DNA from: Sulfuricurvum sp.
Lineage (GTDB): Bacteria; Campylobacterota; Campylobacteria; Campylobacterales; Sulfurimonadaceae
Assembly: GCF_028712165.1 (NCBI RefSeq)
Contig: NZ_JAQTQR010000022.1
Span: 1 to 37,178 of the forward strand
DNA: 37,178 nt
Direction of reading: 5' to 3'
Position numbers and translations under genes: made by a program. The number at the start of each line of letters is the position of its first letter. Position 1 is the first letter of the stretch. This document shows, in pieces, positions 1 through 32,200 of the stretch. The notes beneath the pieces were generated by a model, which did not search any database, had not been told where the DNA came from, and saw only the letters and a list, made by a program, of their open reading frames with translations.

Positions 1-782
1 AGGGCTTTAGAACCGATTTGACGTTTGAGAATGGTTAATTTACCCTCTTTGAGCGTCGGTTTGAAGACGTAAAATTCATCCGGATTGACCCGTCCGCCGA
101 CAATATTTTCTCCCAATCCCCAAATCGAGTTGATAAGGATCAGATTATCCGAACCGTTTTCGGTATCGATCGTAAACATGACCCCGCTGCTGGCAATATC
201 GCTGCGTACCATTTTCTGAACTCCGACTGAGAGGGCAACCGCAAAATGATCGTATCCGCGGCTATGACGGTAGCTGATCGCGCGATCGGTAAAAAGCGAC
301 GCAAAACACCGCTTGATGTGTTCGACAAGCATCTCTTCACCGCGTACATTGAGATAGCTCTCCTGCTGTCCGGCGAAACTCGCATCCGGCAAATCTTCCG
401 CCGTGGCAGAAGAACGTACCGCGACATCGACCGATACGACACCGTACTCCGCTTCCATTTGTCGGTAATTCTCAGCGATTTCTGTTTTTAGCGCATCAGG
501 CATATCCCCTGAGAGCATCAAAGTTCGTATCGCTGATCCGCATTTGTTGAGCGCTTCGATATCGGTCAAATCAACACCGGCAAAAAACTGGCGGATTTTG
601 GACTCAAAACCGTTATGCGCTATAAAAAAACGATATCCGTCCGCTGTGATGGCAAACCCTTCCGGAACTTTAACCCCCAGAGTTTTCAACGAACCGATCA
701 TCTCTCCCAAAGAGGCATTTTTACCTCCGACCAAGGGGATGTCTTCTAATCTCAATGAATCCAGAGTGCGAATATACTTCAT
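1..782 (-). CDS. ppsA: Phosphoenolpyruvate synthase, N-terminal part (cut by window edge)
   Basis: The reverse strand reads open from an ATG at 782 to the window edge, giving about 260 residues without a stop. The product starts MKYIRTLDSLRLEDIPLVGG and contains KNASLGEM, VPEGFAIT, VAVRSSATAEDLPDASFAGQ and GVMFTIDTENG, the pattern of the PPDK_N/PEP synthase ATP-grasp domain that binds ATP. PEP synthase turns pyruvate, ATP and water into PEP, AMP and phosphate, a key gluconeogenic step in autotrophs. An AAAGGAG ribosome site sits 6 bases before the ATG. The phosphohistidine and PEP-binding domains lie outside the window. Pyruvate phosphate dikinase is the main alternative, but the opening LVGGKNASLGEM is typical of PEP synthase. 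Confidence 0.93.
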   Translation of the reverse strand, partial: MKYIRTLDSLRLEDIPLVGGKNASLGEMIGSLKTLGVKVPEGFAITADGYRFFIAHNGFESKIRQFFAGVDLTDIEALNKCGSAIRTLMLSGDMPDALKTEIAENYRQMEAEYGVVSVDVAVRSSATAEDLPDASFAGQQESYLNVRGEEMLVEHIKRCFASLFTDRAISYRHSRGYDHFAVALSVGVQKMVRSDIASSGVMFTIDTENGSDNLILINSIWGLGENIVGGRVNPDEFYVFKPTLKEGKLTILKRQIGSKA

Positions 783-3082: not shown

Positions 3083-5506
3083 TTAAAAATAAAATTCTTT
3101 TTTTTCAAAAAGTTCTACGCAAGCATCAGCTACTGCAGCATCGTAAAGAGTCCCCCGCCCTTGTTTGATTTCATTCAAAGCAGCTTCGACTCCCAATGCC
3201 GCACGATAGGGACGGTGTGAAGACATTGCTTCGACGATGTCGGCGACGCAAATGATTTTTGCTTCCAACAAAATCTGATCGCCTTTCAGTCCCTGCGGAT
3301 ACCCAGAGCCGTCGATTTTTTCATGGTGCTGCAAAATTATGTCAGCAATCGGCCAAGGAAATTGAACATCTTTCAGAATATCGTATCCCTCCTGGGGATG
3401 AGATTGAATGAGCATAAATTCGATAGGGGTGAGCTTACCGGGCTTGGAAAGAATCTCAGCCGGTACGTGGATTTTTCCAAGATCATGGATGATGGATGCG
3501 AAATGTATACCTTGAACTTGCGTATCATTCAAGTTCATTTTCCGCGCAATGGCTGTTGCCAGCACACTAACCCGATTTTGATGGCCTGCCGTATAGGGAT
3601 CGCGTGCCTCTACAGTAGCAGCAATGGTCTCTATGGATTGTTCCATACTTTGGCGCAAGATCGCTGTATGCTGATCGTGTGCGACACGCTTGCGATGGGC
3701 TATGATACCGTAGGCAAGGTCGTTTGCCAATTCTTCAAGTAGTATAACTTCTTCTTCTTCTTCTGCGAATGCGTTTGCTTCCGATGCATAAATATTCAGT
3801 GCACCGAATACTGTGTCACCCTCCATGAGTGGAAGTGCAATGCTGGCCGTGTAGCCACGGGCCAAAGCGGCATCTCTCCATAATGGATATTCGCTCTCTG
3901 CGGTGATGTTGCGGGTGATGTGAGTTTTTGCGGAGCGTATCGCTTTGGAGAGAGGCATTTGGTTCGCTGCCGTTGCGTTCCAGCTGAGTTTCTCTATCCA
4001 ATGATGCTCATCTTCCGAACCGGACCATGCCATTGGAATAATGGTTTTTTCCGGATCGTCCTGAGCGTAATCGACCACTGCCAGACTATAGCCCCCTTCT
4101 TTTACAATGACCTCCACGACTCTCTTAAGCAGATTTTCTTCGCTCTGTGCCTGTACCAATGCCATATTGCCGGCCGAGAGCGTTTTAAGGGCACGGTTGG
4201 CACGATTGATTTCTTCTTCGGCTTTTTTGCGCTGAGAGATGTCACGGATGATACCGATAGCTTCCCATTTTCCTTCTCTCATGTTGGCTGAGAGCGACAG
4301 TTCTATAGGAAATTCCGTTCCGTCTTTTTTTAAAGCGGTCAGTTCCATAGTTTTTCCTATGGCAGGTCCTTCTCCCGTATGTATGAAATGGCTGAATCCT
4401 TTGTGGTGAGCTTCGTGAAACCGTTCAGGCGCCAAGAGGGGATGCAACGCTTTTCCGACAGTCTCTTCTTTTGTATATCCGAATATGTTTTCAGCCGCTT
4501 CGTTCCAATAGGCGATAAGCCCTTCATCGTTCATGATGAGAATCGCATCCTGGGCAGTAGTGGTTATGGTGCGAAATTTCTCCTCGCTCTCGTGCAGCAA
4601 TTGTTTGGATTTTATCTCTTCGGTGATATTTTCAAAGATATGGATACTGAAACTGTACTCTCCCTCATCGTCATAAACCGGGTAGGTACGTGATTTGAAT
4701 ATTCGGCCGTCCTCGAGGGCGAATTGTTCTTCTTCACCTTTTCCACTTCGGAAAGACTTTTCACAGGTATGCATCGGAGCATCAAGTTTCGGAAAGACCT
4801 GATAGTAGGGTTTTCCGATAATATCTTTGAACTTTTGTGCGCCGGAAAGTTCTTTGTATGCTTTGTTGACCCGTATCAGATTGTATTCCCTGTCATGGAG
4901 CATTACCCCGTCCTCGATACCGTCGAAAGCATCGGTCCACTCCCTCTGAGCTATGGCAATGATCTCTTTTAGTTTTTTATCTGCAGTGACATCATAAAGT
5001 ACACTGCGGTATATACCGTTTTGATGCTGCATGATAATCAACTGGGCCCAAAACACGGTTCCATCCGCTCGAATCATCCGCAATGTGCACATTTGCTGTT
5101 CGGAAGGCAATACTTCTTTCAAACGGCAGTGATAGTAGCTGTCCTGATCGTCTTTCCAAATGAACCGTGTTAGAGGGTAACCGATCAGATGGTTTCGACT
5201 CACCCCAAAGAGCGATGCCACTCTTAGATTGGCTTCAAGAACCAATCCTTCTTTAGAGAGGGTGATATACCCTACGGGTGCCAGATCGTACAGATCCACA
5301 TAGCGCTCTTGTTGGGCCTGAAGTTTTTGCTGGATTGTGCGAAGTTCTTCGTTTTGCAGCTCCAGTTCGATCTGATGTACCTGCAGTTCATGAAGAAGCG
5401 AAGCCGTCTCTTCGGGTGAGAGATTATGATGGTGCGGAGTTTTGGCTGCATTGGCTATGGCAATTTTTTCCGCCTGTTCACGGAGTGAGCTTTTCTCTCT
5501 ACTCAT
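3083..5506 (-). CDS. PAS-GAF sensor with HD-GYP c-di-GMP phosphodiesterase
   Basis: About 807 residues, third gene of the signalling operon. The start is taken at the ATG at 5506, which overlaps the previous gene's TGA (ATGA) and has AAGGAG 7 bases before it, rather than a start at 5536. Domains in order: LHELQVHQIELELQNEELR leader helix (about 35-55), three PAS domains (about 65-430; second and third with DGVMLHDREYN and GLIAYWNEAAENIFGYT), a GAF domain (about 450-605), and HD-GYP (about 630-800). The catalytic signature is complete: HDLGKIHVPAEIL and HHEKIDGSGYPQGL. HD-GYP enzymes hydrolyse c-di-GMP. No membrane segment is seen, so the protein is probably cytoplasmic. The PAS and GAF domains would sense a ligand or redox state that cannot be named. 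Confidence 0.92.
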   Translation of the reverse strand: MSREKSSLREQAEKIAIANAAKTPHHHNLSPEETASLLHELQVHQIELELQNEELRTIQQKLQAQQERYVDLYDLAPVGYITLSKEGLVLEANLRVASLFGVSRNHLIGYPLTRFIWKDDQDSYYHCRLKEVLPSEQQMCTLRMIRADGTVFWAQLIIMQHQNGIYRSVLYDVTADKKLKEIIAIAQREWTDAFDGIEDGVMLHDREYNLIRVNKAYKELSGAQKFKDIIGKPYYQVFPKLDAPMHTCEKSFRSGKGEEEQFALEDGRIFKSRTYPVYDDEGEYSFSIHIFENITEEIKSKQLLHESEEKFRTITTTAQDAILIMNDEGLIAYWNEAAENIFGYTKEETVGKALHPLLAPERFHEAHHKGFSHFIHTGEGPAIGKTMELTALKKDGTEFPIELSLSANMREGKWEAIGIIRDISQRKKAEEEINRANRALKTLSAGNMALVQAQSEENLLKRVVEVIVKEGGYSLAVVDYAQDDPEKTIIPMAWSGSEDEHHWIEKLSWNATAANQMPLSKAIRSAKTHITRNITAESEYPLWRDAALARGYTASIALPLMEGDTVFGALNIYASEANAFAEEEEEVILLEELANDLAYGIIAHRKRVAHDQHTAILRQSMEQSIETIAATVEARDPYTAGHQNRVSVLATAIARKMNLNDTQVQGIHFASIIHDLGKIHVPAEILSKPGKLTPIEFMLIQSHPQEGYDILKDVQFPWPIADIILQHHEKIDGSGYPQGLKGDQILLEAKIICVADIVEAMSSHRPYRAALGVEAALNEIKQGRGTLYDAAVADACVELFEKKEFYF

Positions 5507-7755
5507 GGTCGAACTCCTTTTTGTTGTCGTTTCCAATTGTCCAGTAAATAAATACTCAATGTATCAATATCCAAAGGATGACCAAACAGATATCCCTGAT
5601 AGGCATGACACCCATGGGCTTCTAAAAACTCAAATTGTTCCAGAGTTTCTATCCCCTCGGCAATCACATTCATTTCCAGTCCGATTCCCATGGTGATGAT
5701 AGTCCGTACGATCATCGCATCATTTTTATTTTCAGGCAGATTCCGTACAAAAGAACGGTCAATTTTGATCTGATTGAGCGGCAATTTAGCCAAATAAGAC
5801 AATGATGAATATCCGGTGCCAAAATCATCCATGGAAAAATGGACGCCAAGCCGATTGATCGCATCCATCTTCTCAATCGTATCTTGTACATTTTCCAGAA
5901 CCAGACTCTCAGTCAGTTCGAGCTTCAAGAGTTCCGGGTTTGCTCCGCTCATTTCAAGCGTTTTCTCCAAGAGTGTGACGAAGTCTTTTTGACGAAATTG
6001 CCGTGCACTTACATTGACCGAAATACGCAGATGGCGGGTATGTTCGTCTGCTTCCCATGCTTTGAGCTGAGCACAGGCACTTTGCAATACCCATTGACCC
6101 ATCGGTATTATAAAACCTGTCTCTTCTGAGAGGGGGATAAATTCATCAGGCAGTATCAAACCACGCTGTGGATGTTCCCAGCGAATAAGTGCTTCGACTC
6201 CTGTTACACGTTGCAAGTTGTCAATCTGAGGTTGATAATACAGACGAAATTGATTTGATTCGAGCGCCTGCTTTAGCTCATACTCCATTGTACTGCGCAG
6301 ATCAAGCGCATGCTGCATTTTCGGATCAAAGAAAAGAAGTTGATTGCCTCCGGATTTTTTGGCTTGATACATGGCAATATCCGCATGTTTGAAAATATCT
6401 TCCGCAGTATTATCTTTATTAAAAAGTTCAATGCCGATGCTGAGTTTGCAATAATATTCAAAATCTTTGAGTAAAAAAGGATCATTCATTTCCGTTAAAA
6501 GTTTATCGCCTATCTGCTTTGCCAAATAGGCCGTTTCTTGTATGTCTGTTTTTAAATTTTGCAGTAAAATGATAAATTCATCTCCACCTTGTCGTGCAAC
6601 GGTGTCTCCTTCACGAATCATTGTCCGGAGACGTTCGGCTACTTCGATCAGGAGTAAATCACCGGCATCGTGGCCTCTGGTGTCATTAAGACCTTTGAAA
6701 TTATCCAAATCAAGGAAAAAAATTGCTCCAAACAGTTGGCTTCGCTCAGTAGAAATGATAGCTTGATTGAGCCGTTCTTGAAACAAACGTCGATTCGGCA
6801 GTTTTGTAAGGGGATCATAATAGGCTAAACGGTGAATCACCGCTTCAGCTTCTTTATCCTTGGTGATGTCCGAAAAGTTGCCGATATAATGGGTAATCTT
6901 TTCATTAGCATCTGTGACAGCGGTTATTGTCAGCAATTCGGCATAAATCTGGCCATTTTTGCGTTTATTCCATATTTCGCCTTGCCACCTTTTAGACTCT
7001 TTTAATGTTTTCCACATTTGTTGATAAAAAAGTTTGTCATGACGACCTGATTTAAGAACCCTCATTGTCTGTCCAACGATCTCTTTTTGATCATAGTTGG
7101 TTAATCGGGTAAAAGCGGGGTTAATACGTAAAATAACCCCTTGTGCATCCGTTATCACCATCCCTGCTTGGGATTCAAACGCGATAGCAGCAATTCGTCG
7201 TTCTTCCTCTGCCTCTTTTCGTTCGGTTATATCATTGAGTATTAAACATATTGTATTGTTCCTCTGAGCTTTTTCCAATCGGTTGGCAGAGAGCTGCACC
7301 CAACAACAGGTCTGATTTTCTTTCATTAATCGCAGTTCGCAGGGTTTGAAAAAATGTTTTCTAAAAAAATAATAGATATCCTGATCTTCGCCAAAAATAA
7401 AATCCGTTATCTGGTGATGGATCAGTTTGTCCTGATCCGCACCCAGCAGTGAGGAAGCTGCACGGTTGGCTTGAAGAATCTCCCCTTCTTCATTCAACGT
7501 GCAATATCCGATGGGTGCTAAATTGTAGAGGTCAAAATAGTCTTCCCGCTCAGCATCAAGTTCACTTTGTATTTTTCGAAGCTCGTCGTTTTGCATCTCC
7601 AGTTCGATCTGATGAACTTGCAATTCGTGAAGTACACGAGATATCTCTTCGGGTGATAATGTATTCGTAGTCAGCAGTTCATTGCCACGTACTATCTCTT
7701 CTGCTTTATGGCGCAGTACTTGAGCATCATTGGCAGGAGAGAGATGTTTAGGCAT
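5503..7755 (-). CDS. PAS-PAS-GGDEF-EAL c-di-GMP turnover protein
   Basis: 750 residues, second gene of the operon. The start ATG shares one base with the upstream TAA (TAATG), and AGAGGAA lies just before it. The N-terminal 170 residues (LHELQVHQIELEMQNDELR, DLYNLAPIGYCTLNEEG) are clearly paralogous to the start of the downstream HD-GYP protein. A second PAS follows (AGMVITDAQGVILRINPAF). The GGDEF domain is intact (RQGGDEFIILL), with an RxxD product-inhibition site (REGD) five residues before it. The EAL domain is also intact: VEALIRWEHP, KLELTESL, MDDFGTGYSSLSYLA, IKIDRSFV, VIAEGIET. Both cyclase and phosphodiesterase activity are therefore possible; which one dominates cannot be told from sequence. 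Confidence 0.94.
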   Translation of the reverse strand: MPKHLSPANDAQVLRHKAEEIVRGNELLTTNTLSPEEISRVLHELQVHQIELEMQNDELRKIQSELDAEREDYFDLYNLAPIGYCTLNEEGEILQANRAASSLLGADQDKLIHHQITDFIFGEDQDIYYFFRKHFFKPCELRLMKENQTCCWVQLSANRLEKAQRNNTICLILNDITERKEAEEERRIAAIAFESQAGMVITDAQGVILRINPAFTRLTNYDQKEIVGQTMRVLKSGRHDKLFYQQMWKTLKESKRWQGEIWNKRKNGQIYAELLTITAVTDANEKITHYIGNFSDITKDKEAEAVIHRLAYYDPLTKLPNRRLFQERLNQAIISTERSQLFGAIFFLDLDNFKGLNDTRGHDAGDLLLIEVAERLRTMIREGDTVARQGGDEFIILLQNLKTDIQETAYLAKQIGDKLLTEMNDPFLLKDFEYYCKLSIGIELFNKDNTAEDIFKHADIAMYQAKKSGGNQLLFFDPKMQHALDLRSTMEYELKQALESNQFRLYYQPQIDNLQRVTGVEALIRWEHPQRGLILPDEFIPLSEETGFIIPMGQWVLQSACAQLKAWEADEHTRHLRISVNVSARQFRQKDFVTLLEKTLEMSGANPELLKLELTESLVLENVQDTIEKMDAINRLGVHFSMDDFGTGYSSLSYLAKLPLNQIKIDRSFVRNLPENKNDAMIVRTIITMGIGLEMNVIAEGIETLEQFEFLEAHGCHAYQGYLFGHPLDIDTLSIYLLDNWKRQQKGVRP

Positions 7756-10721
7756 TATTCCTCTTTTTTTGGAATCAATCGTTCCGTTGTTGCAATGGAA
7801 TATATTTCGCCGGCACTGTTGACCAACGCCGTTGCCGTTATCCGCACATCGGAGAGGGAACCGTCCTTGCAGAGGCGCTGCGAGGTGTACGGTTCGAGAA
7901 TCTCTGATCGGCTAAGATGCTTAATTTTGGAGATCTCTTCTCTTTGATCTGCCCCTGCGATCCGATCCCGTACATTCATACGCAAAGCCTCTTCTTCGCT
8001 CCAGCCATATATCGCTGCGGCACCGGGGTTCCAAGCCAGTATGTGTCCATCCAAATCCTGCACCGTGATTGCATCGACGGCGTCATGAACGACGATGGCC
8101 AATCGGCTCAATTCGTTGGCTTTATGGAGTGCTTCGCGCATCTGTACCATCTCGGAGATATCGATAAACGAAATGACCGCCCCTTCAATAACGTTTTCGA
8201 TAGTGCGATAGGGCTGGATACGCATCGAATACCATTTCCCCTCGCGTGTTTGTACCTCTATTTCTTTGGGGATCAAAGAATTTAACACCGACTGTATATC
8301 CTCAACAAAGGTGTCGTATCCGATGAGGTTGGAGACGATATGCCCCACGGATCGCCCTAAATCGGGGAGGATAAGATTGATGATTTTAGTGACGGCGGGG
8401 GTGAAACGGAGAATGCGTAGTTTGTGATCGACGAAAACCGTACCGATATTGGTACCCGCCAGCAGGTTGTTCATATCGTTGTTGGCACGTGAGAGATCGG
8501 TCACTTTGGTTTGAAGTTCGGCATTGACGGTCGATAACTCCTCATTGAGGGATTGAAGCTCTTCTTTGGAAGTTTCGAGCTCTTCGTTAGTCGATTGGAG
8601 CTCCTCATTGAGCGATTGCATCTCTTCGTTATAGGATTTGAGCTCTTCATTGGAGATTTCGAGTTTCTGATTGGCGATTTGGAGAAACGCCTCTTGATCA
8701 TAAAGCTCTTGCTGAAGCGCCGCGATACGTTTGCTTTGATCCGCTCCTAAAGCGGCAAAAACCGTCGCACTTTCAGAGTGAAGTGTATCGTCAGCAACTC
8801 CCTCAAAGATGACAAGGTATAACGCAGATTCCGACAAAGCCGTCGTCGGAACCGGCTGTACCGTCAGATTGAGCGTCGTAAAAGTATCGTTGTATTGAAT
8901 TCTCAAGAGCGGACAATGGGTACTCTCTTTGGACGATACTGCTTTATGCAGCGCCATCGTTAAGTCACGGCGCAGCCCCTCGCGTGCCATTTTTAGAATA
9001 TTGCTGATACCCACTTCACCCGATGGAAGTTCCAGATACATTCCGGTTCGGCCATGCAGATAGAGAATATCCCCCTGTTCATTCACTAGGGCACCGGACA
9101 GCGGCAGGTACCGCAACAGTGATTGTTCCATCAATTCACGCAACGGCTGTTTTTCGGGAACAGCAGGTTTTTCAACGGTACGTGAAGTGAATATGCGAGT
9201 TGGCACCGTAATAGGAAGGGTCCGATCTAATATCGTGCGCTGTTTAGTGCCGGTATCCTCTTTACGCTGAAAGAATTTCCATTTTTCATCCAATGCGTTA
9301 AAGAGATGTCTAAATTCTCCAATGCTCTCGGATGAGCCCAAAAACAAAATACCCTCAGGATTGAGTGCATAGTGAAACAAAGGGATGACCTTTTTTTGCA
9401 AGTCAGCATTCATGTAGATCAGAAGGTTACGGCAGCTGATAAAATCGAGTTTGGAAAATGGAGGGTCTTTAATGATGTTTTGTTCCGAAAAAATCAGCAT
9501 ATCTCGGATGCTTTTATGGATGCGGTAGCTGCCATCATGTTCAGCAACAAAAAAGCGGCCCAATCTCTGCGGCGACATATCTGCGGCGATGGCGGCGGGA
9601 TAAATACCGCTACGCGCCTTGGCTATGGCATTGGCATCAATATCCGTAGCAAAAATATGTACGGAAATGTTTTGTTGATACTCTTCTAAATACTCTTTTA
9701 TGAGAATGGCAATCGAATAGGCTTCTTCTCCGGTAGAACATCCGACACACCATATACGAAGTGTTTCTCTTTCGGATCTGAGGGCAAAAAGCTGGGGAAT
9801 TATTTGCTCTTGCAATACGCTAAACGCTTCCGGATCACGGAAAAAATTAGTGACACCGATCAGGAGATCATGAAACAATGCCTCCACTTCGGCAGGGTTT
9901 TGCTGGAGGTACTTGACGTATTCGTCAATCGTTTCGATCTGATGGATGGCGAGACGCCGCTCAATACGGCGCCCAATGGTACTGGGTTTGTATTGGGAAA
10001 AATCATGTCCTGTTTGGGAACGGAGAAGGATAAAAATTTTATCCAGCATGTTTTGGACTTTAGGGGTAGATACAAATTCTGGATAGCTGAGTTTTCCAAA
10101 AGAATATGCCGTATAAACGATAAGCTGTTTGGCCATCTCTGAGGGGGAGAGGACATAGTCGATAAGACCCGTCGCGATAGCACTGCGCGGCATACCGTCA
10201 TATTCTGTCGTTTCAGGGGATTGGACGATGGCCATTCCCCCTTCCTCTTTGATAGAGCGGATCCCCTGTGTACCGTCACTTCCCGTACCGGAGAGGATGA
10301 TACCGATGGCGTGCTCATGTTGATCCTGTGCCAGAGAATGAAAGAAAAAATCAATCGGTAAACGTTGGCCGTGTGCTGCTGTTGGTTCAAGCAGCTGAAG
10401 TGAACCGTTTAAAAATGCCATATTGCGTCCAGGAGGTATAATATAGACATGATTAATCTCTACTTTCATACCGTCTTGAACTTCTACAACTTTCATACGG
10501 GTATAACGCTGGACAAGCTCAGCCAACATGCTTGCATGATCGGGAGAGAGATGCTGAACGAGTACAAACGCCATATTCGGATCACAATCTAGAGGGATGC
10601 CTGAAAAAAACTCTTCAAATGCGGCAAGTCCGCCGGCGGATGCACCTATGCCAACAATAGGAAAAGCGGTAGATCGAGCAGACCCTTTATTTTTTATTTC
10701 AGTTGTTTGGCGCTTTGGCAT
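7755..10721 (-). CDS. CheB-CheR-PAS fusion protein
   Basis: 988 residues, first gene of the operon. A CheB methylesterase domain without a receiver domain (about 20-200) keeps the catalytic triad: Ser28 (GIGASAGG), His57 (VQHLSP) and Asp149 (GTGSDG). A CheR methyltransferase domain (about 220-480) has TNFFRDPEAF, WCVGCSTGEEAYS and FISCRNLLIYM. A linker with a divergent PAS-like stretch, a seven-heptad coiled coil (690-738) and two C-terminal PAS domains follow. In such fusions the CheB and CheR parts control methylation of proteins, and the coiled coil joins them to PAS sensing. There is no histidine kinase domain, so output probably passes to the two c-di-GMP proteins downstream. GGAAG precedes the ATG by 4 bases. 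Confidence 0.93.
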   Translation of the reverse strand: MPKRQTTEIKNKGSARSTAFPIVGIGASAGGLAAFEEFFSGIPLDCDPNMAFVLVQHLSPDHASMLAELVQRYTRMKVVEVQDGMKVEINHVYIIPPGRNMAFLNGSLQLLEPTAAHGQRLPIDFFFHSLAQDQHEHAIGIILSGTGSDGTQGIRSIKEEGGMAIVQSPETTEYDGMPRSAIATGLIDYVLSPSEMAKQLIVYTAYSFGKLSYPEFVSTPKVQNMLDKIFILLRSQTGHDFSQYKPSTIGRRIERRLAIHQIETIDEYVKYLQQNPAEVEALFHDLLIGVTNFFRDPEAFSVLQEQIIPQLFALRSERETLRIWCVGCSTGEEAYSIAILIKEYLEEYQQNISVHIFATDIDANAIAKARSGIYPAAIAADMSPQRLGRFFVAEHDGSYRIHKSIRDMLIFSEQNIIKDPPFSKLDFISCRNLLIYMNADLQKKVIPLFHYALNPEGILFLGSSESIGEFRHLFNALDEKWKFFQRKEDTGTKQRTILDRTLPITVPTRIFTSRTVEKPAVPEKQPLRELMEQSLLRYLPLSGALVNEQGDILYLHGRTGMYLELPSGEVGISNILKMAREGLRRDLTMALHKAVSSKESTHCPLLRIQYNDTFTTLNLTVQPVPTTALSESALYLVIFEGVADDTLHSESATVFAALGADQSKRIAALQQELYDQEAFLQIANQKLEISNEELKSYNEEMQSLNEELQSTNEELETSKEELQSLNEELSTVNAELQTKVTDLSRANNDMNNLLAGTNIGTVFVDHKLRILRFTPAVTKIINLILPDLGRSVGHIVSNLIGYDTFVEDIQSVLNSLIPKEIEVQTREGKWYSMRIQPYRTIENVIEGAVISFIDISEMVQMREALHKANELSRLAIVVHDAVDAITVQDLDGHILAWNPGAAAIYGWSEEEALRMNVRDRIAGADQREEISKIKHLSRSEILEPYTSQRLCKDGSLSDVRITATALVNSAGEIYSIATTERLIPKKEE
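8508..8654 (-). repeat. Seven tandem heptads encoding a coiled coil inside the CheB-CheR-PAS gene
   Basis: The reverse strand encodes SNEELKS, YNEEMQS, LNEELQS, TNEELET, SKEELQS, LNEELST and VNAELQT in unbroken register, visible in the DNA as 21-bp degenerate repeats. It is a protein-level heptad repeat (residues 690-738), expected to form a signalling helix between CheR and PAS domains. Confidence 0.75.
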
Positions 10722-11400: not shown

Positions 11401-12129
11401 TTAGTACTGAATAATTTCTTTGGAATATTCGGTCAATTTAACCGTTTTGGCTGAAATCGATACCAGTTGTTTCCCTTGAGCAATCCCGTTATAAAACTCT
11501 TTTAACTCCGGTTTAAAGGCTCTGAAATAATCCTGAAATTTATCCGATCCCAAAACTCCGACTGCCCAGATCGTATCATCGTCCGCTACCGTAAGAACAA
11601 TTGCAGCAAGCGGTTGCGTTGCTGCTCCCCCTAGTACTTTTGCACCTGCGTGGGCATCGTATGCCGAGAGATGGGATGAACAAACGATGATACCGCTTTT
11701 ACTGTACGCCATGGTCGGTGTCGCTTTTGGGACATATTTGATAAAACTGTCTTTGGGCGTCGGATGAGTCAGCTGATGGGCACAAATAGCACTGTAGGCA
11801 ACAATTGTACGATCTTTACCTACACCATTTTTCCACACGTATTCTTCACCCGTGTCCGATTTCAAAGTAACTTCCTGCTCTGTGGGCTCAGGAAGATTGA
11901 TAATCATACATGGAGTAGACGCATACGGGTAGTTAAAAATATAAGTCACCTCTTTTTCCAAAGAAGAAGCCTTAATAGGAGTACCCGCACCGTCTACCAG
12001 CTGTACTTTTTCATACGCCATATAGAGACGCCCGTCATCCGCGTACAAAGTCCCGCGAATCAATGAAGGGTTCACCGCTACAATCGTAGCACCCGCCGCT
12101 ATAACTTTCAAAAATCCTCTACGTTCCAT
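11401..12129 (-). CDS. Tat-exported Rieske [2Fe-2S] protein of the Sox operon
   Basis: 242 residues from the ATG at 12129. The frame also has a TTG at 12150 overlapping the soxZ stop, but the ATG begins a proper twin-arginine signal (MERRGFLKV) and follows AGAGGGG. The Rieske ligands are visible as CAH (Cys116, His118) and CSSH (Cys150, His153), 31 residues apart, which is longer than in most ferredoxin-type Rieske domains and closer to respiratory Rieske insertions. The second box continues AYDAHAGAKVLGGAATQPLA, like the usual fold. It would carry electrons in the periplasm. No cytochrome b lies beside it, so it is unlikely to be the bc1 subunit. A role with SoxYZ is inferred from the operon. 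Confidence 0.8.
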   Translation of the reverse strand: MERRGFLKVIAAGATIVAVNPSLIRGTLYADDGRLYMAYEKVQLVDGAGTPIKASSLEKEVTYIFNYPYASTPCMIINLPEPTEQEVTLKSDTGEEYVWKNGVGKDRTIVAYSAICAHQLTHPTPKDSFIKYVPKATPTMAYSKSGIIVCSSHLSAYDAHAGAKVLGGAATQPLAAIVLTVADDDTIWAVGVLGSDKFQDYFRAFKPELKEFYNGIAQGKQLVSISAKTVKLTEYSKEIIQY

Positions 12130-12146
12130 TCTTCTTATCCCCTCTC

Positions 12147-12479
12147 TCAACCCGCAGGGGTGATGGCTACCGTTTTTTGAGCTTTTTCATTTTCTGAATT
12201 TACGAAATCAACAACCAATGTCCCAGGTCCGGTCACTTTCAACGGGAACTGAATCACCGGATTTTGGCTTGTTGCCACATCCAAATCGAAATGAGCTACT
12301 GTTGCACCGTTATAGGTAGCCGTAATCTCTTTCATGTAAAAGCGTGGAAATACTTTTCCAGATTCTTTATCTTTGGTAAACCCCGTATCCATTTTATGGA
12401 TAACAATGATTTTAGCTTTCACCACATCACCGACTTTATATGTCTGATCTAAAATTTTTACTACGCCTCTTAATTCCAT
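12147..12479 (-). CDS. soxZ: SoxZ sulfur carrier subunit
   Basis: 110 residues without a signal peptide, as usual for SoxZ, which is exported together with Tat-tagged SoxY. The fold matches SoxZ: VKAKIIVIHKMDTGF, then FPRFYMKEITATYNG and FPLKVTGPGTLVVDFVNSEN. SoxYZ is the periplasmic carrier that holds sulfur intermediates on a SoxY cysteine during thiosulfate or sulfide oxidation. A strong GGAGGAG ribosome site lies in the 12-bp gap after soxY. The TGA stop is just before the Rieske gene's ribosome site, so these genes are probably translated together. Confidence 0.93.
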   Translation of the reverse strand: MELRGVVKILDQTYKVGDVVKAKIIVIHKMDTGFTKDKESGKVFPRFYMKEITATYNGATVAHFDLDVATSQNPVIQFPLKVTGPGTLVVDFVNSENEKAQKTVAITPAG

Positions 12480-12491
12480 GTTATCTCCTCC

Positions 12492-12962
12492 TCAACCGCA
12501 TCCGCCGAGAGCGACCCGAACACTTTGTGATGCTTTAAAAATTTGTCCTTTATTGGTTTTTGCCAAAATAACGACATCTTGGGTTTGACCCATTTTGACA
12601 TTGACATACAAATAAGCGATACCGTTTGCCGGAGTTAAATCAAAAGAGATTGCTTTGTTCACTTTATTCTTGGTGGTCAATACCGTGATATTACTAATAT
12701 AATTATCCGCGGTCATCGGGTGATTAATAGTCACTTCAACCGGAACAACCGCGCCGTTTTCAGGAGCTTCCGGAATATTAAGACTCATGATTGAGCTGCC
12801 GTCTTCCGCTTTTTTCCCAGCAAGATAGTCATTTAATAAATCATTATAAGGTATTTCAATCGCCTCTTCCGCAGCACTCAACCCGTGCCGAAAAAGAATC
12901 GGATTGAGCAAGCCGATTGTTGCAAGGGCAAATGAGCCTTTTATGAAACTGCGTCTTTCCAT
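12492..12962 (-). CDS. soxY: SoxY sulfur carrier protein
   Basis: 156 residues. It begins with a twin-arginine signal (MERRSFIKG, hydrophobic ALATIGLLNPILF) and ends in VALGGCG, the flexible arm whose cysteine (Cys155) carries the sulfur intermediate; the family motif is GGCGG, here shortened by one glycine. The body has the SoxY immunoglobulin-like fold (VPVEVTINHPMTADNYISNI). GAGAGGAAAAT precedes the ATG. It follows the flavoprotein gene after a 108-bp gap holding two mutually exclusive stems. No soxXA, soxB or soxCD is present in the window, so this is a stand-alone soxYZ pair tied to a flavoprotein. Confidence 0.92.
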   Translation of the reverse strand: MERRSFIKGSFALATIGLLNPILFRHGLSAAEEAIEIPYNDLLNDYLAGKKAEDGSSIMSLNIPEAPENGAVVPVEVTINHPMTADNYISNITVLTTKNKVNKAISFDLTPANGIAYLYVNVKMGQTQDVVILAKTNKGQIFKASQSVRVALGGCG

Positions 12963-12997
12963 ATTTTCCTCTCTTTCAAAAAATCATCTTGTTTTAT

Positions 12998-13061
12998 TGC
13001 AAGACAAATCCAAACAATCCGTAATTGCTTGAATCTGTCTTGCACGGCAAACCCGTGCAAG
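12998..13061 (-). promoter_or_regulatory. Mutually exclusive RNA stems between the flavoprotein gene and soxY
   Basis: In the minus-strand transcript, CTTGCACGG (13061-13053) pairs perfectly with CCGTGCAAG (13047-13039) over 9 bp with a 5-base loop, 8 bases after the upstream stop codon. The overlapping segment TGCAAGACA (13044-13036) also pairs with TGTCTTGCA (13006-12998), extendable inward to 14 bp with two G-U pairs. The two stems share CUUGCA's partner, so only one can form. No T-run directly follows either stem. This looks like an attenuator, a processing site or a switch setting the flavoprotein:SoxYZ ratio; the function is inference. Confidence 0.5.
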
Positions 13062-13070
13062 GAGAATGGT

Positions 13071-14426
13071 TTAGTTAAAGAAGTCTCTGTAAAGACCATT
13101 ACCCCATTCGATAAGACCTTTACCTGCGGCAAGACCGTCGGCACTGTCCCATTTTTCCATTGTACTTGCATTTGCAAATCCGAATGATTTTTTGGTTTCA
13201 TCATACGCATATCCGGCATTAACGGAGATCGCGCGTAATGGATCTGATTCAACGGCCGAATAGCAGGTAGTGTGCGGAGATGTCCATGTTTTTTGGCTGA
13301 GTTCTTGACCGCCCATGTATTTGACGATGTTTGCCGCAACAACACGAGCTTCCGTATTCGCCGTATTAGCAGACTTACTAAAGCCCATCGGACGAACGTC
13401 ACCGGTACAGAATACGTTAAGATCTCCAATAACCTGATAGGTAAACGGATCGATATTCGCTTCTGCTTTATTAAATACGCTGTCTTTTGCCACACCCGCG
13501 ATTTCAAGTAATTTATTTCCGCGAACACGGCTGTAAAGTGCTGCATCCGTGAAATCAATCTCTTCACCGAGTTCCGTAACAATTTTTTGTTTATGCGGAT
13601 CGATACTTGTGATAGTACTACTTGGCATATAGGTGATGTAATCTTTATACAATTTTTCAAACGCCGAGTGGAAACCGTCCGCTTTAATCGTGATATTCGG
13701 ATTTTCATCCAAGATAACCACTTTCCCTTTGATCTTGTTGCGTTTCATATAATCCGCAATCAAACAGCTGCGCTCATACGGCCCAGGCAAACAACGGTAG
13801 TTTCCGCCAGGTACGGTTTGTACAAATACACCGCCTTCAAAGTTTTCGATTTTTGATTTCAAAGACAATGTTTCGCTTCCGGCGATAAATGCACCCGGGA
13901 ATTTTGTTTTCAATGTATTTTCTAGCTCAACATCACCGTTTGTCCATTTTGAATAGTCATAATCAATACCAGGAGCCAATACAAGTACATCGTATTTCAC
14001 GGTCCCTTCATTGGTATAAACAACTTTTGCCGTTCGGTCAATCTCATGTGCCGTTGCTTGCAAGAACGTATAGTTTCCGTTACGTGCACCTTCGAGGAAA
14101 TCGTGTGTAATAAATTCGAGAGGAAGAATACCTGTCGCTACCAAGTTACTGATAAACCCCGACATAAAGACGGATCGTTTATCCATCAATACTACGTCGA
14201 TATTCGGATTACCTTTTTTAACGTATTTAGCAATGGTCAAACCTGACGGTCCGGCACCTACGATAACAACACGCGGTCCTTTTGCCGCCGGAATCGGAGC
14301 CGGAGATAACAATACCCCTTTTGCTGCCGATTTAGGACTTTCGTTCCCTTTTGCATAACCGCTTGCTGCAGCCGTAACTGCCGCCAATCCGGTAAACTTC
14401 ATCGCGTCTCTTCTTGATAGCGCCAT
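13071..14426 (-). CDS. fccB: FCSD-type sulfide dehydrogenase flavoprotein
   Basis: 451 residues, first gene of the operon. A Tat signal (LSRRDAMKF, then AAVTAAASGYA) leads to a FAD-binding Rossmann motif (VVIVGAGPSGLTIA). The flavocytochrome c sulfide dehydrogenase pattern is present: YRCLPGPYERSC (Cys212) and HTTCYSAV (Cys388), matching the redox-active cysteine pair that binds sulfide, and NVFCTGDVRPMGFSKSANTA for the second FAD contact. Such proteins oxidise sulfide to sulfur or polysulfide and pass electrons to a c-type cytochrome. The usual dihaem partner FccA is absent; a monohaem cytochrome at the operon end may replace it. An extra Cys at 221 lies near Cys212. AAGGAG precedes the ATG by 6 bases. 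Confidence 0.88.
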   Translation of the reverse strand: MALSRRDAMKFTGLAAVTAAASGYAKGNESPKSAAKGVLLSPAPIPAAKGPRVVIVGAGPSGLTIAKYVKKGNPNIDVVLMDKRSVFMSGFISNLVATGILPLEFITHDFLEGARNGNYTFLQATAHEIDRTAKVVYTNEGTVKYDVLVLAPGIDYDYSKWTNGDVELENTLKTKFPGAFIAGSETLSLKSKIENFEGGVFVQTVPGGNYRCLPGPYERSCLIADYMKRNKIKGKVVILDENPNITIKADGFHSAFEKLYKDYITYMPSSTITSIDPHKQKIVTELGEEIDFTDAALYSRVRGNKLLEIAGVAKDSVFNKAEANIDPFTYQVIGDLNVFCTGDVRPMGFSKSANTANTEARVVAANIVKYMGGQELSQKTWTSPHTTCYSAVESDPLRAISVNAGYAYDETKKSFGFANASTMEKWDSADGLAAGKGLIEWGNGLYRDFFN

Positions 14427-16467: not shown

Positions 16468-16830
16468 GTGCGCAAAATCATACTGTTGATATTTCCGATG
16501 ATTGCACTCATGGCTGCTCCTTCGGCGTATGAGCAAGGTAAGAAGCTCTATTTTTCAAAAGGGTGCAACGGCTGTCACGGCGTCTCGGCGACCGGCAGCG
16601 GTCAATATCCTTCTCTTGCATACCGCCGAAAAAATGTCCTCGTTGATAAACTCAAACGTCTCCGTAACAAACAAGGGAACACACAATTGGCTCAATTGAT
16701 GATTCCCATAGCTATGACACTTAACGACAAACAAATCGATGAAGTAGCCACTTTTTTGAGTGAATATCATGAAAACCAAAAACACACCTATGTCCCTGAT
16801 GATTCAATGACGGTTGGAGACGGATCATGA
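16468..16830 (+). CDS. Small periplasmic monohaem cytochrome c
   Basis: 120 residues starting at GTG (16468). A signal peptide (KIILLIFPMIALMAAPSA) precedes a class I cytochrome c domain: GKKLYFSKGCNGCHGVSATG gives the CxxCH haem site, and the Met in IPIAMTLNDKQIDEVATFL is the likely sixth ligand. It resembles small electron carriers of the c553/c5 type. Its TGA overlaps the lpxB ATG by four bases (ATGA), so the two are co-translated though their functions are unrelated. The electron partner is unknown. Confidence 0.85.
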   Translation: MRKIILLIFPMIALMAAPSAYEQGKKLYFSKGCNGCHGVSATGSGQYPSLAYRRKNVLVDKLKRLRNKQGNTQLAQLMIPIAMTLNDKQIDEVATFLSEYHENQKHTYVPDDSMTVGDGS

Positions 16831-28407: not shown

Positions 28408-28457
28408 TTTTTTTTATAGTAATCTAATACGCGAACACTCGCACTAGAGGAAAGTAC

Positions 28458-29783
28458 ATGAAGAAAAATCAGATAAAATATCTACTCGGAGGAATATTTT
28501 TCCTTAGTTTAGGAGTAGAACAAGCATATGCGATCCCCAGTTTTGCCCGTCAAACAGGCTTTAATTGTGCCGTCTGCCATACTGTTTTCCCGGAATTAAC
28601 CCAAACAGGTCGGGAATTCAAGTTACACGGCTATACGATGAACAACAGTGAAAAAAACAAAATGTTTATTCCGTTATCAGCAATGGTAATGGCAGATATA
28701 ACCAAATCTTCGGATAGAACCGATATGCCCAAAGACGGCAAAATAGTTATCCCTCAAGTCAGCTTGTTTTATGGTGGAAAAATCACCGATAAATCCGGTG
28801 CATTTGTTCAATTGACGTATGACGGGACTGAGCTTTTGGGTAAAACCGATATTGCGCACCACATCGGTATGGATAATATGGATATCCGATATGCTGATGC
28901 GACAACTTTGGCAAATAAAGAGTTGGTGTATGGAATCACCGTCAATAATAATCCGACTGTATCCGATCTATGGAATAGCGTACCGGCATGGGGGTTCCCG
29001 TATGCGTCATCTGCAATCGCCAATACCCCAAGCGCCGGTGTAATGGCTGACGGCGGTTTAGGCCAAGCGGTTGGAGGCATCGGTGCATACGCATTATGGA
29101 ATGATTTGCTTTACGCTGAAATGGCCGTATACCGCAGTGCAAAACCCGGCGGTATTATGGGGATATTCGGTTGGAAAAATCAAGATTTGAAAGGAGATGC
29201 TTCTCTTGTTCAAGGAACTACACCTTACATCCGGATTGCATTGCAGCACTCCTATGACAACAGCTATATCATGCTTGGCGGTTATACCTTGAGAACGGTC
29301 ATTAATCCAGCGGTCGTTTCTAATACCGACGGTTCACTTGATACCTATAATGACCGTGCTGTGGATGCAGAATATCAATATACAAACGGCAGCAACAGCA
29401 TAACGGCTACGGCTACAAAAATTTGGGAAAAACAAACACTTGATTACAGTGCCGCAAACGGAGAAGCCGATAATCTAAACAATTCCCTCTCAACAACAAA
29501 AGCCAAAGTAAGCTATTACTATGATCAAAAATATGGGGCGTCTTTAGGAACTTTTTCAACATCAGGCACAGCTGATGCCACTAAATACGGAACCTTTAAT
29601 GCTTCTCCAAACAGCAGAGGAGAAATTGCCGAAATCGACTATCTTCCATTGCAGAATATCAAATTGGCTTTGCAATACACCAAGTATGACAAATTTGACG
29701 GAGCGAGCAAAAATTACGACGGTGCAGGCCGGAATGCATCCGACAATAACAATCTTTACTTTCTTGCTTGGTTTATGTTCTAA
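28458..29783 (+). CDS. Cyc2-like fused outer-membrane cytochrome-porin
   Basis: 441 residues. A signal peptide ends AYA, and the mature protein begins at once with a haem segment IPSFARQTGFNCAVCH (Cys37, Cys40, His41), then FPELTQTGREFKLHGYTM. That opening is close to the consensus of Cyc2, the fused monohaem cytochrome-porin of iron oxidisers. The remaining 360 residues show alternating amphipathic strands (VSLFYGGKI, GAFVQLTYDG, PYIRIALQHSYD, IKLALQYTKYDKF) and end in the barrel-type signature LYFLAWFMF. It should sit in the outer membrane and carry electrons inward or outward. Substrate is not set: iron oxidation, reduced sulfur or another donor. AGAGGAAAGTAC precedes the ATG. Confidence 0.75.
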   Translation: MKKNQIKYLLGGIFFLSLGVEQAYAIPSFARQTGFNCAVCHTVFPELTQTGREFKLHGYTMNNSEKNKMFIPLSAMVMADITKSSDRTDMPKDGKIVIPQVSLFYGGKITDKSGAFVQLTYDGTELLGKTDIAHHIGMDNMDIRYADATTLANKELVYGITVNNNPTVSDLWNSVPAWGFPYASSAIANTPSAGVMADGGLGQAVGGIGAYALWNDLLYAEMAVYRSAKPGGIMGIFGWKNQDLKGDASLVQGTTPYIRIALQHSYDNSYIMLGGYTLRTVINPAVVSNTDGSLDTYNDRAVDAEYQYTNGSNSITATATKIWEKQTLDYSAANGEADNLNNSLSTTKAKVSYYYDQKYGASLGTFSTSGTADATKYGTFNASPNSRGEIAEIDYLPLQNIKLALQYTKYDKFDGASKNYDGAGRNASDNNNLYFLAWFMF

Positions 29784-30827: not shown

Positions 30828-31355
30828 ATGACGATTAATAGCGGATCTGTTTGGGCAACCCCCTCACAGTCTTATTCCGGTAACAACGTCCAAAGTCAAA
30901 GCAGTGCTAGTGGCATGGCTCCAACCGATTACAGTGCTGTAATGCAGCAGGCGGGAAATACTCTGATTGCGGCATTGGATACGGATAAAAGCGGTACAAT
31001 CGATAAAACTGAGTTTTCCCAGGCTGCCCAAGCACTTTCTCAAAAAACAGGCAATACCTACAATGCCGACAGTGCGTTCAGTGCTATCGACAAAAACAGT
31101 GACGGCTCTCTCAGTGTTGATGAACTTCTAAATGCCTTGAAACAGGCACGTTCACAGAACAGCCATCATCACGGACTTCATAAAACAGATGCAACCTCTT
31201 CTGCAGAGCAAACTGCAAGTTCGACAAGCGAGACTGCATCGGCTGCCGATACAAGCGGTTCTTCAAAACTGCAATCTATTTTGATGCAGAAAATACTCTC
31301 CGCTTATACCGGGAACGGTGATACAACCGGTTCTAAAACACTTGCTATGGCATAA
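30828..31355 (+). CDS. EF-hand calcium-binding protein
   Basis: 175 residues with two canonical EF-hand loops: DTDKSGTIDKTE (51-62) and DKNSDGSLSVDE (88-99), each with Asp/Asn/Ser ligands at 1, 3, 5 and Glu at 12, so both should bind Ca2+. The N-terminal 45 residues (Ser/Gln-rich) and the region after residue 108 (HHHG, then Ser/Thr/Ala-rich) are low-complexity. No signal peptide is seen. The C-terminal LQSILMQKILSAYT is a possible amphipathic helix. AAAGGAG precedes the ATG. The ApbE-like gene starts 11 bp after it. Confidence 0.88.
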   Translation: MTINSGSVWATPSQSYSGNNVQSQSSASGMAPTDYSAVMQQAGNTLIAALDTDKSGTIDKTEFSQAAQALSQKTGNTYNADSAFSAIDKNSDGSLSVDELLNALKQARSQNSHHHGLHKTDATSSAEQTASSTSETASAADTSGSSKLQSILMQKILSAYTGNGDTTGSKTLAMA

Positions 31356-31366
31356 CAAGCAGAGCG

Positions 31367-32200
31367 GTGTATTACTATCAGTTTGAAGCTTTTAGCGCAC
31401 CGTGTGAACTGCATATCGATGCATTATCTGCATCGATAGCCGATACTGCGGCAAAAGTCGTTTTCGAAAATGCTAAACGGTTAGAACAGCGATATAGTTT
31501 TTTCCGAAACGATTCTGAGCTACATACACTAAATACCCGTTCTTCTAATATCTGTCTGCTAAGCGATGAGCTGTCAGGGTTAATCCAGCTCTCACTTTTT
31601 TATAGGGATAAAACTTTAGGAGCTTTTGATATTGCAATGGCAGGCACACTTAAAGAGAGTTCCAATGCATCTTCAACTCTTGAATATCATGCCAAAAGAA
31701 AAACCCTACTCCCCTTTGCTTCCTCATCACATTTGTCTTTGGAAGGCAACTGTTTAACATTTACTAATCCAATCACAAAAATCGATTTGGGAGGTTTGGT
31801 CAAAGAGTATGCGGTGGATCAAAGTATCTTGCAGTTGCAGTCTATGGAAATCACGTCAGGACTGGTCAATTTCGGCGGAGATATTGCCGCTTTCGGAACC
31901 TGTCACGATCATTCGTGGCGAGTCGGAATACAAAATCCGCAAAATCCGGAAACAAATCTGGCAGAAATCGAGCTTAATACTGCATCATTATGCACTTCAG
32001 GGCACTCTAAACGCTACAGTATTATCCAATTCGAGAAGATCTCACATATCATTGGGCCAATCGACGCACCCTCTTCCTATTCTCAGGTCAGCATTCTTGC
32101 ACCGACAACCGTCGATGCAGGAATTTGGAGTACAGCCATGCTCGTTAATCCCGATCTAACCCTTCCGAATCATATCAAAATGGTTCATTCGATCCCATAG
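31367..32200 (+). CDS. apbE: Divergent ApbE-like FAD:protein FMN transferase
   Basis: 277 residues starting at GTG, with a weak ribosome site. ApbE features are present: GAFDIAMAG, IDLGGLVKEYAVD (139-151), SGLVNFGGDIAAFG, LCTSGHSKRY and HIIGP. ApbE proteins link FMN to Thr or Ser in flavoproteins such as the Nqr and Rnf complexes. Oddities: it has no signal or lipobox; it is 40-60 residues shorter than usual; the Mg2+-binding Asp of the ADALSTA box is Gly252 (DAGIWSTA); and HIIDP reads HIIGP. It may be a degenerate or specialised form, so activity is uncertain. It is convergent with argB with a 3-bp gap. Confidence 0.72.
   Translation: MYYYQFEAFSAPCELHIDALSASIADTAAKVVFENAKRLEQRYSFFRNDSELHTLNTRSSNICLLSDELSGLIQLSLFYRDKTLGAFDIAMAGTLKESSNASSTLEYHAKRKTLLPFASSSHLSLEGNCLTFTNPITKIDLGGLVKEYAVDQSILQLQSMEITSGLVNFGGDIAAFGTCHDHSWRVGIQNPQNPETNLAEIELNTASLCTSGHSKRYSIIQFEKISHIIGPIDAPSSYSQVSILAPTTVDAGIWSTAMLVNPDLTLPNHIKMVHSIP

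Follow-up and report, generated by a model that had tools for sequence, protein, structure and literature searches.

The window, by which we mean the whole stretch of 37,178 nucleotides of Sulfuricurvum DNA that was analysed, contains a gene whose product is almost certainly Cyc2, and sequence comparison indicates that this protein belongs to Cluster 2 of the family and not to Cluster 1 or 3. The best explanation for its presence, to which we give a probability of roughly 60%, is that it serves as an accessory electron-uptake route from dissolved Fe(II) beside sulfur oxidation. The Cyc2 family itself is known. In the literature as far as it was searched, with supplementary trees outside the search, we found no report of a Cluster 2 Cyc2 for Campylobacterota, Sulfuricurvum, Sulfurospirillum, Sulfurimonas or Epsilonproteobacteria.

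The gene and its product

A Cyc2 is expected to have a signal peptide, the motif AxPxFAR[QK][TY], one CxxCH with PxL after it, a length of at least 365 residues and a 16-strand porin (Keffer et al, 2021; PMC8406198). Judged from the sequence, every one of the published features that could be tested is present. The N-terminus looks by eye like a signal peptide (MKKNQIKYLLGGIFFLSLGVEQAYA) and forms a helix at residues 3-18 in the predicted model. It is followed by IPSFARQTGFNCAVCHTVFPELTQTGREFKLHGYTM and, at the C-terminus, by WFMF. The segment AIPSFARQT fits the first motif and ends three residues ahead of C37, CAVCH at 37-41 is the sole CxxCH of the protein, TVFPEL after the haem site fits the PxL motif and the length of 441 residues is also as expected. 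The sequence-only reading had proposed a Cyc2-type fused cytochrome-porin with the haem motif 11 residues past the cleavage site, and with cleavage inferred at AYA/IPS the distance from I26 to C37 is indeed 11. The TGREFKLHGYT after the haem motif and the aromatic C-terminal end that it had described are both seen; FARQTGFNCAVCH and TGREFKLHGYT are both found in the protein, which finishes with ...LAWFMF. The identification as a Cyc2-type protein is backed by the motif, by the 16-strand model and by the phylogeny.

Neither Pfam nor NCBIfam has a family for the protein, so that its name must come from direct comparison, and Pfam has none for any of 76 relatives. Searching the PDB with the sequence gave nothing real (a nanobody, E 0.67). 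Relatives that match over the full length occur in hundreds of genomes, with 429 confirmed loci, the best 80 of the 429 having identities of ~40-76%; the open reading frame is therefore not a chance one. Compared with a 96%-identical orthologue the dN/dS is 0.018/0.38, or ~0.05, and the GC content of the gene (0.426) matches that of the window (0.423), which does not suggest a recent import. Together these values point to an intact, resident gene under purifying selection. The gene is apparently monocistronic, with a DEAD-box helicase gene upstream (+) and a small, convergent lipoprotein-like gene (-). Promoter and terminator scans gave no more than chance.

Table 1. Features of the cyc2 gene, its product and other genes of interest (positions in the window; residue numbers refer to the protein).
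Feature	Position	Strand	Details
cyc2-type gene	28458-29783	+	441 aa, ATG start
Ribosome-binding site agaggaaag, purine-rich	28446..28454	+	Ends 3 bases 5' of the ATG; from sequence
Predicted signal peptide MKKNQIKYLLGGIFFLSLGVEQAYA	28458..28532	+	Putative cleavage AYA/IPS; from sequence, by eye
Cyc2 signature AIPSFARQTGFNCAVCH, A25-H41	28530..28580	+	Motif as defined in PMC8406198
Single haem-binding CxxCH, C37-H41	28566-28580	+	Within AIPSFARQTGFNCAVCH
PxL motif, P45-E46-L47	28590..28598	+	P is the 4th residue past the haem His; from sequence, motif of PMC8406198
16-strand beta-barrel, residues 73-440	28674..29777	+	Predicted model
Stretch with conserved charged barrel residues	28872..29429	+	D139, D142, R144, D170, R259, D299, D303, E324; alignment
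Model strands 1-8			73-84, 96-108, 113-122, 135-151, 154-163, 205-214, 218-227, 255-266
Model strands 9-16			269-282, 295-310, 313-328, 341-355, 359-370, 386-398, 401-413, 432-440
Small mono-haem cytochrome c, Pfam Cytochrom_C	16468..16830	+	Best own-genome match to the Caballeronia di-haem partner, E 2.6e-5
EF-hand protein	30828-31355	+	~1 kb from cyc2
ApbE flavin transferase	31367-32200	+	Near cyc2, beside the EF-hand gene

The predicted structure

The window protein was aligned with loci from the genome collection, 76 sequences in all, and the AlphaFold2 model built from them reaches a mean pLDDT of 87.2 and a pTM of 0.85, with exactly 16 barrel strands. Solved 16-strand porins resemble it with Z scores of ~20-21 over ~300 residues (OmpF, OmpC, PorB, OprO). 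OprO (4rjw), which is among the porins on which Cyc2-PV1 was modelled (PMC8406198), superposes with a Z of 20.5 and an rmsd of 3.7 over 306 residues. The sequence-only reading had made its proposal depend on a closed barrel, and a 16-strand porin is what the model predicts. Though OmpF/OmpC and OprO are the best solved matches to the barrel (Z 20-21), they are without the haem segment and have only ~10% sequence identity to the window protein.

In 102 aligned Cluster 2 sequences P27, F29, Q32, C37, C40, H41, L47, G51, F54 and K55 are invariant. The charged residues listed in Table 1 are 94-100% conserved in the same alignment and identical in the Cyc2 of a rusticyanin (rus) operon, and all of them apart from D170 sit in predicted strands. 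This arrangement would suit a charged lumen through which Fe(II) could pass or in which it could be bound; alternatively, their role could be structural.

Placement among the Cyc2 clusters

Cyc2 proteins are split into Clusters 1, 2 and 3 (PMC7029218), and Cyc2 from Campylobacterota has already been placed in the first of these, where it is nested among the Zetaproteobacteria (PMC12442345). The window protein was compared with two yardsticks. The first comprises the Cyc2 copies of genomes sampled evenly across the phylum Pseudomonadota, among which every fourth genome is small and has one or two Cyc2 types; given this sampling pattern, and published work in which Zetaproteobacteria have Cluster 1 throughout and Cluster 3 in part, we infer that the small genomes are from that class. 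The second is the Cyc2 of genome G1092, encoded ~7 kb upstream of a rusticyanin-like gene whose match to its family (E 1e-39) is strong but slightly below the curated cut-off. This genome was chosen because the one with the best rusticyanin match (G1038) has no Cyc2 match. The order of genes in G1092 is cyc2, unnamed, COX2, COX1, unnamed, CtaA, UbiA (ctaB) and the rusticyanin-like copper protein, and it agrees with the published order of the Acidihalobacter rus operon except for the absent cyc1 (PMC10654088). On the strength of this order, with cyc1 missing, we assigned its Cyc2 to a rus operon. G1092 has, besides this rusticyanin/cytochrome-oxidase operon (L208) with cyc2 and without cyc1, another Cyc2 copy at a separate locus (L203).

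In BLAST comparisons the window protein aligns over its full length with the 76 Cluster 2 proteins (216-402 bits) and with the rus-operon Cyc2 (228 bits), whereas the matches to the Cluster 1 type (44-65 bits) cover only the N-terminal ~100 residues and those to the Cluster 3 type (49-54 bits) only ~44 residues at the N-terminus. Pairwise identity is 37-52% to Cluster 2 and 24-30% to the Cluster 1 type. Two trees were made, a quick one of 93 rows and a bootstrapped one of 58 rows. The Cluster 2 group, holding the window protein and the rus-operon Cyc2, has a support of 96 SH-aLRT in the former and 95/96 in the latter; the corresponding values are 99 and 100/99 for zeta type 1 with Campylobacterota group B, and 100 and 100/100 for zeta type 3. 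Group B acts as an internal control, since it reproduces the published presence of Campylobacterota in Cluster 1. The phylogeny that the sequence-only reading had called for therefore puts the window protein inside Cyc2 and not outside it with periplasmic relatives.

The 12 Campylobacterota sequences within Cluster 2 come together as a single group with weak support (81; 62/73). A tree in which this group is joined to Cluster 1 is not rejected by an AU test (p 0.14), so that its exact place at the base of Cluster 2 is provisional. That the window protein is itself a Cluster 1 Cyc2, the type of the neutrophilic iron oxidisers, would accord with the Cluster 1 members published for the same phylum (PMC12442345), with the N-terminal motif in common and with this AU result, but we rejected it as very improbable, with the AU value as a caveat, given that its full-length similarity is to Cluster 2 alone, that the identities divide in the same way, that both trees give Cluster 2 and that the AU result bears on where the Campylobacterota clade branches at the Cluster 2 base.

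Several Sulfurimonadaceae genomes (G282, G398, G373; L026, L029, L035, L036) carry Cluster 1-like Cyc2 genes as tandem pairs. There is also a third, very divergent Campylobacterota family (L009, L032, L033) of ~380-460 residues with the motif FAR(Q/E)Y..(D/N/A)C..CH...P.LN..G..FLRNG, which groups with the Cluster 3 type through long branches.

Host and distribution

The host is a Sulfuricurvum (Campylobacterota) with a 2.72-Mb genome that is 99.9% complete, the window being contig 59. The suggestion from the sequence alone that this is a sulfur-type genome agrees with a row of genes in the window at 12147-14426 (-) for SoxZ, SoxY and a Tat-signal flavoprotein resembling flavocytochrome-c sulfide dehydrogenase (FCSD); they adjoin a gene at 11401-12150 without a Pfam family. 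Elsewhere in the window, at 3083-10721 (-), three large signalling genes lie next to one another; their products are a CheB-CheR-PAS fusion of 988 aa, a PAS-GGDEF-EAL protein of 750 aa and an 817-aa PAS protein with similarity to HD-type phosphodiesterases.

Of 39 genomes of the genus Sulfuricurvum that were searched with the protein, five carry it: the host, G035 with 96% identity to the window protein, and G005, G008 and G009 with 73-77%. Their loci differ, as the window and G035 have a common threonine-synthase/helicase/argB site, G005 and G008 have other sites and in G009 the helicase and argB are directly adjacent with cyc2 elsewhere. More Sulfurimonadaceae genomes have full-length members, as does Sulfurospirillum diekertiae JPD-1. 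Of the six named Campylobacterota loci of Cluster 2 type, three come from metagenomes of Lake Pavin, a ferruginous lake, which is suggestive of a link to iron, with sampling bias as a possible cause. Cyc2 in sulfur oxidisers is not new as such, with Sideroxydans and Sulfuriferula as examples.

Outside the phylum, Acidithiobacillus ferrooxidans YQ-N3 (L117) and Acidiphilium multivorum (L122, annotated as two pieces) have Cluster 2 Cyc2 genes on plasmids, with a c-type cytochrome gene near and transposases beside them. Such plasmid copies are a possible route of horizontal spread.

Neighbouring genes and candidate partners

At 49 of the 71 loci outside Campylobacterota with enough flanking sequence, a c-type cytochrome gene on the same strand adjoins cyc2, which indicates an electron-transfer chain; in 33 of the 49 this gene lies directly downstream of cyc2 and its product is a di-haem protein, in most cases 200-260 residues long. 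None of the 12 Campylobacterota copies (11 loci and the window) has an adjacent c-type cytochrome gene. Under independence the difference between 49/71 and 0/12 would arise by chance at ~6e-6, although the loci are related and this figure is hence not a probability. Searching the host genome with the di-haem partner of the Caballeronia copy gave weak matches only and no clear Cyc1 orthologue. The best of these matches, the small cytochrome c in Table 1, is by its sequence a weak candidate for the periplasmic electron acceptor.

The EF-hand and ApbE genes near cyc2 were considered as Cyc2 partners and not adopted, as they come and go near cyc2 and are present without it too. A similar pair adjoins cyc2 in G008 and lies 5 kb off in G009, G035 and G005 have ApbE remnants, and a close ApbE homologue is present in only about five of the 36 non-carriers. 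The association may reflect shared ancestry rather than function.

Proposed function

We suggest that the protein is secreted to the outer membrane, where its N-terminal mono-haem segment (~residues 26-60) is fused to the 16-strand porin barrel. Fe(II), as the most likely small dissolved reductant, would enter the charged lumen from outside and pass one electron to the haem. From there the electron would go to a soluble c-type cytochrome of the periplasm, whose gene would lie at another place in the genome, and on to the respiratory chain. This would give Sulfuricurvum an accessory electron uptake alongside sulfur oxidation, kept in a minority of species. On balance we favour Fe(II) as the main substrate by a little. 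The charged barrel residues common to the window protein and the rus-operon Cyc2 support uptake from Fe(II), while the lack of an adjacent partner in all 12 copies and of a clear Cyc1 orthologue in the genome weakens it. Sulfurospirillum diekertiae is known for organohalide respiration and is not known for iron oxidation, and its copy thus counts against the iron reading, as does the caution of Keffer et al that distant Cyc2 homologues may differ in function (PMC8406198). The sequence-only reading had also raised contact with mineral sulfides. This finds no support and is disfavoured, since the published Cyc2 model, in which the single haem faces the periplasm, is taken to mean that Fe2+ is used in dissolved form only (PMC8406198).

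The most serious alternative is a true Cyc2-type cytochrome-porin whose donor is not iron but, for example, a dissolved sulfur species, a humic or flavin shuttle, or the surface of a cell or electrode, or which disposes of electrons outwards. We regard this as unlikely, though well short of negligible. The sulfur-oxidiser host, with soxY, soxZ and the FCSD-like flavoprotein in the window, and the missing Cyc1 partner would both suit it. Relatives are also found in many organisms, such as Caballeronia, Paraburkholderia and Polymorphobacter, that are not known as iron oxidisers. The Cyc2 of 'Tenderia electrophaga' has been tied to extracellular electron transfer in the literature. Against this, each of the three Cyc2 clusters has one member that was tested and oxidises Fe(II) (PMC8406198), and the window protein retains the charged residues seen in the barrel of the rus-operon Cyc2. 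It is improbable that the protein is in essence a porin, its short haem segment serving assembly, sensing or detoxification (such as scavenging of Fe(II) or NO at the cell surface) and not respiration: the stand-alone gene without redox neighbours and the patchy spread within the genus would fit, but across phyla no part of the alignment is better conserved than the haem segment, and the relatives outside the phylum mostly adjoin a c-type cytochrome gene.

Returning to uptake from dissolved Fe(II), a more tentative extension, which we think rather doubtful, is that the Campylobacterota have a separate stand-alone branch of Cluster 2, uncoupled from Cyc1 and rusticyanin, in which iron- or shuttle-driven uptake would use a periplasmic partner of its own in sulfur oxidisers and Sulfurospirillum.

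Comparison with known systems

The rus-operon Cyc2 (Cluster 2; Acidithiobacillus, Acidihalobacter, Acidiferrobacter type) has the same fused N-terminal mono-haem segment and barrel, and that of G1092 is homologous over the full length, at 39% pairwise identity, with the same charged barrel residues. Unlike in the rus operon, the window cyc2 is not flanked by genes for rusticyanin, cytochrome oxidase or Cyc1, and whereas the rus-operon hosts are acidophilic iron oxidisers the window host is presumably a neutrophilic sulfur oxidiser. The Cluster 1 Cyc2 of Mariprofundus ferrooxydans PV-1, shown by experiment to be an iron oxidase, is alike in layout, N-terminal motif and predicted fold. The comparison was made through the Cluster 1-type yardsticks (putative Zetaproteobacteria), and not with PV-1 itself; only the first ~100 residues align well, with CHFQxFP..FGR.FK in the Cluster 1 type and CHTVFPELT..GR.FKL.GYTM in the window protein. 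Cyt572 of Leptospirillum, in Cluster 3, has a similar short N-terminal FAR..C..CH segment and then a barrel; in the Cluster 3-type yardsticks that stand in for it the motif is FARKYG..C.SCHTMFPKL, and ~44 residues align with the window protein. The MtrAB, MtoAB and PioAB systems are alike in outline, with an outer-membrane barrel and c-type haem, but they have separate decahaem proteins and a 26-strand barrel (PMC8406198), whereas the window protein has one haem and 16 strands in one polypeptide.

Iron-oxidising bacteria use proteins of the Cyc2 family to obtain electrons from dissolved iron, and Cyc2 serves as the main genetic marker of this metabolism. The literature has raised the question whether sulfur oxidisers that carry it also oxidise iron (PMC12442345, PMC8406198). 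The partnerless Cluster 2 copies in Sulfuricurvum and in the cultured Sulfurospirillum are ones in which marker and metabolism could be separated by experiment. Sulfur bacteria with an outer-membrane haem pore of this kind may also take electrons from outside the cell.
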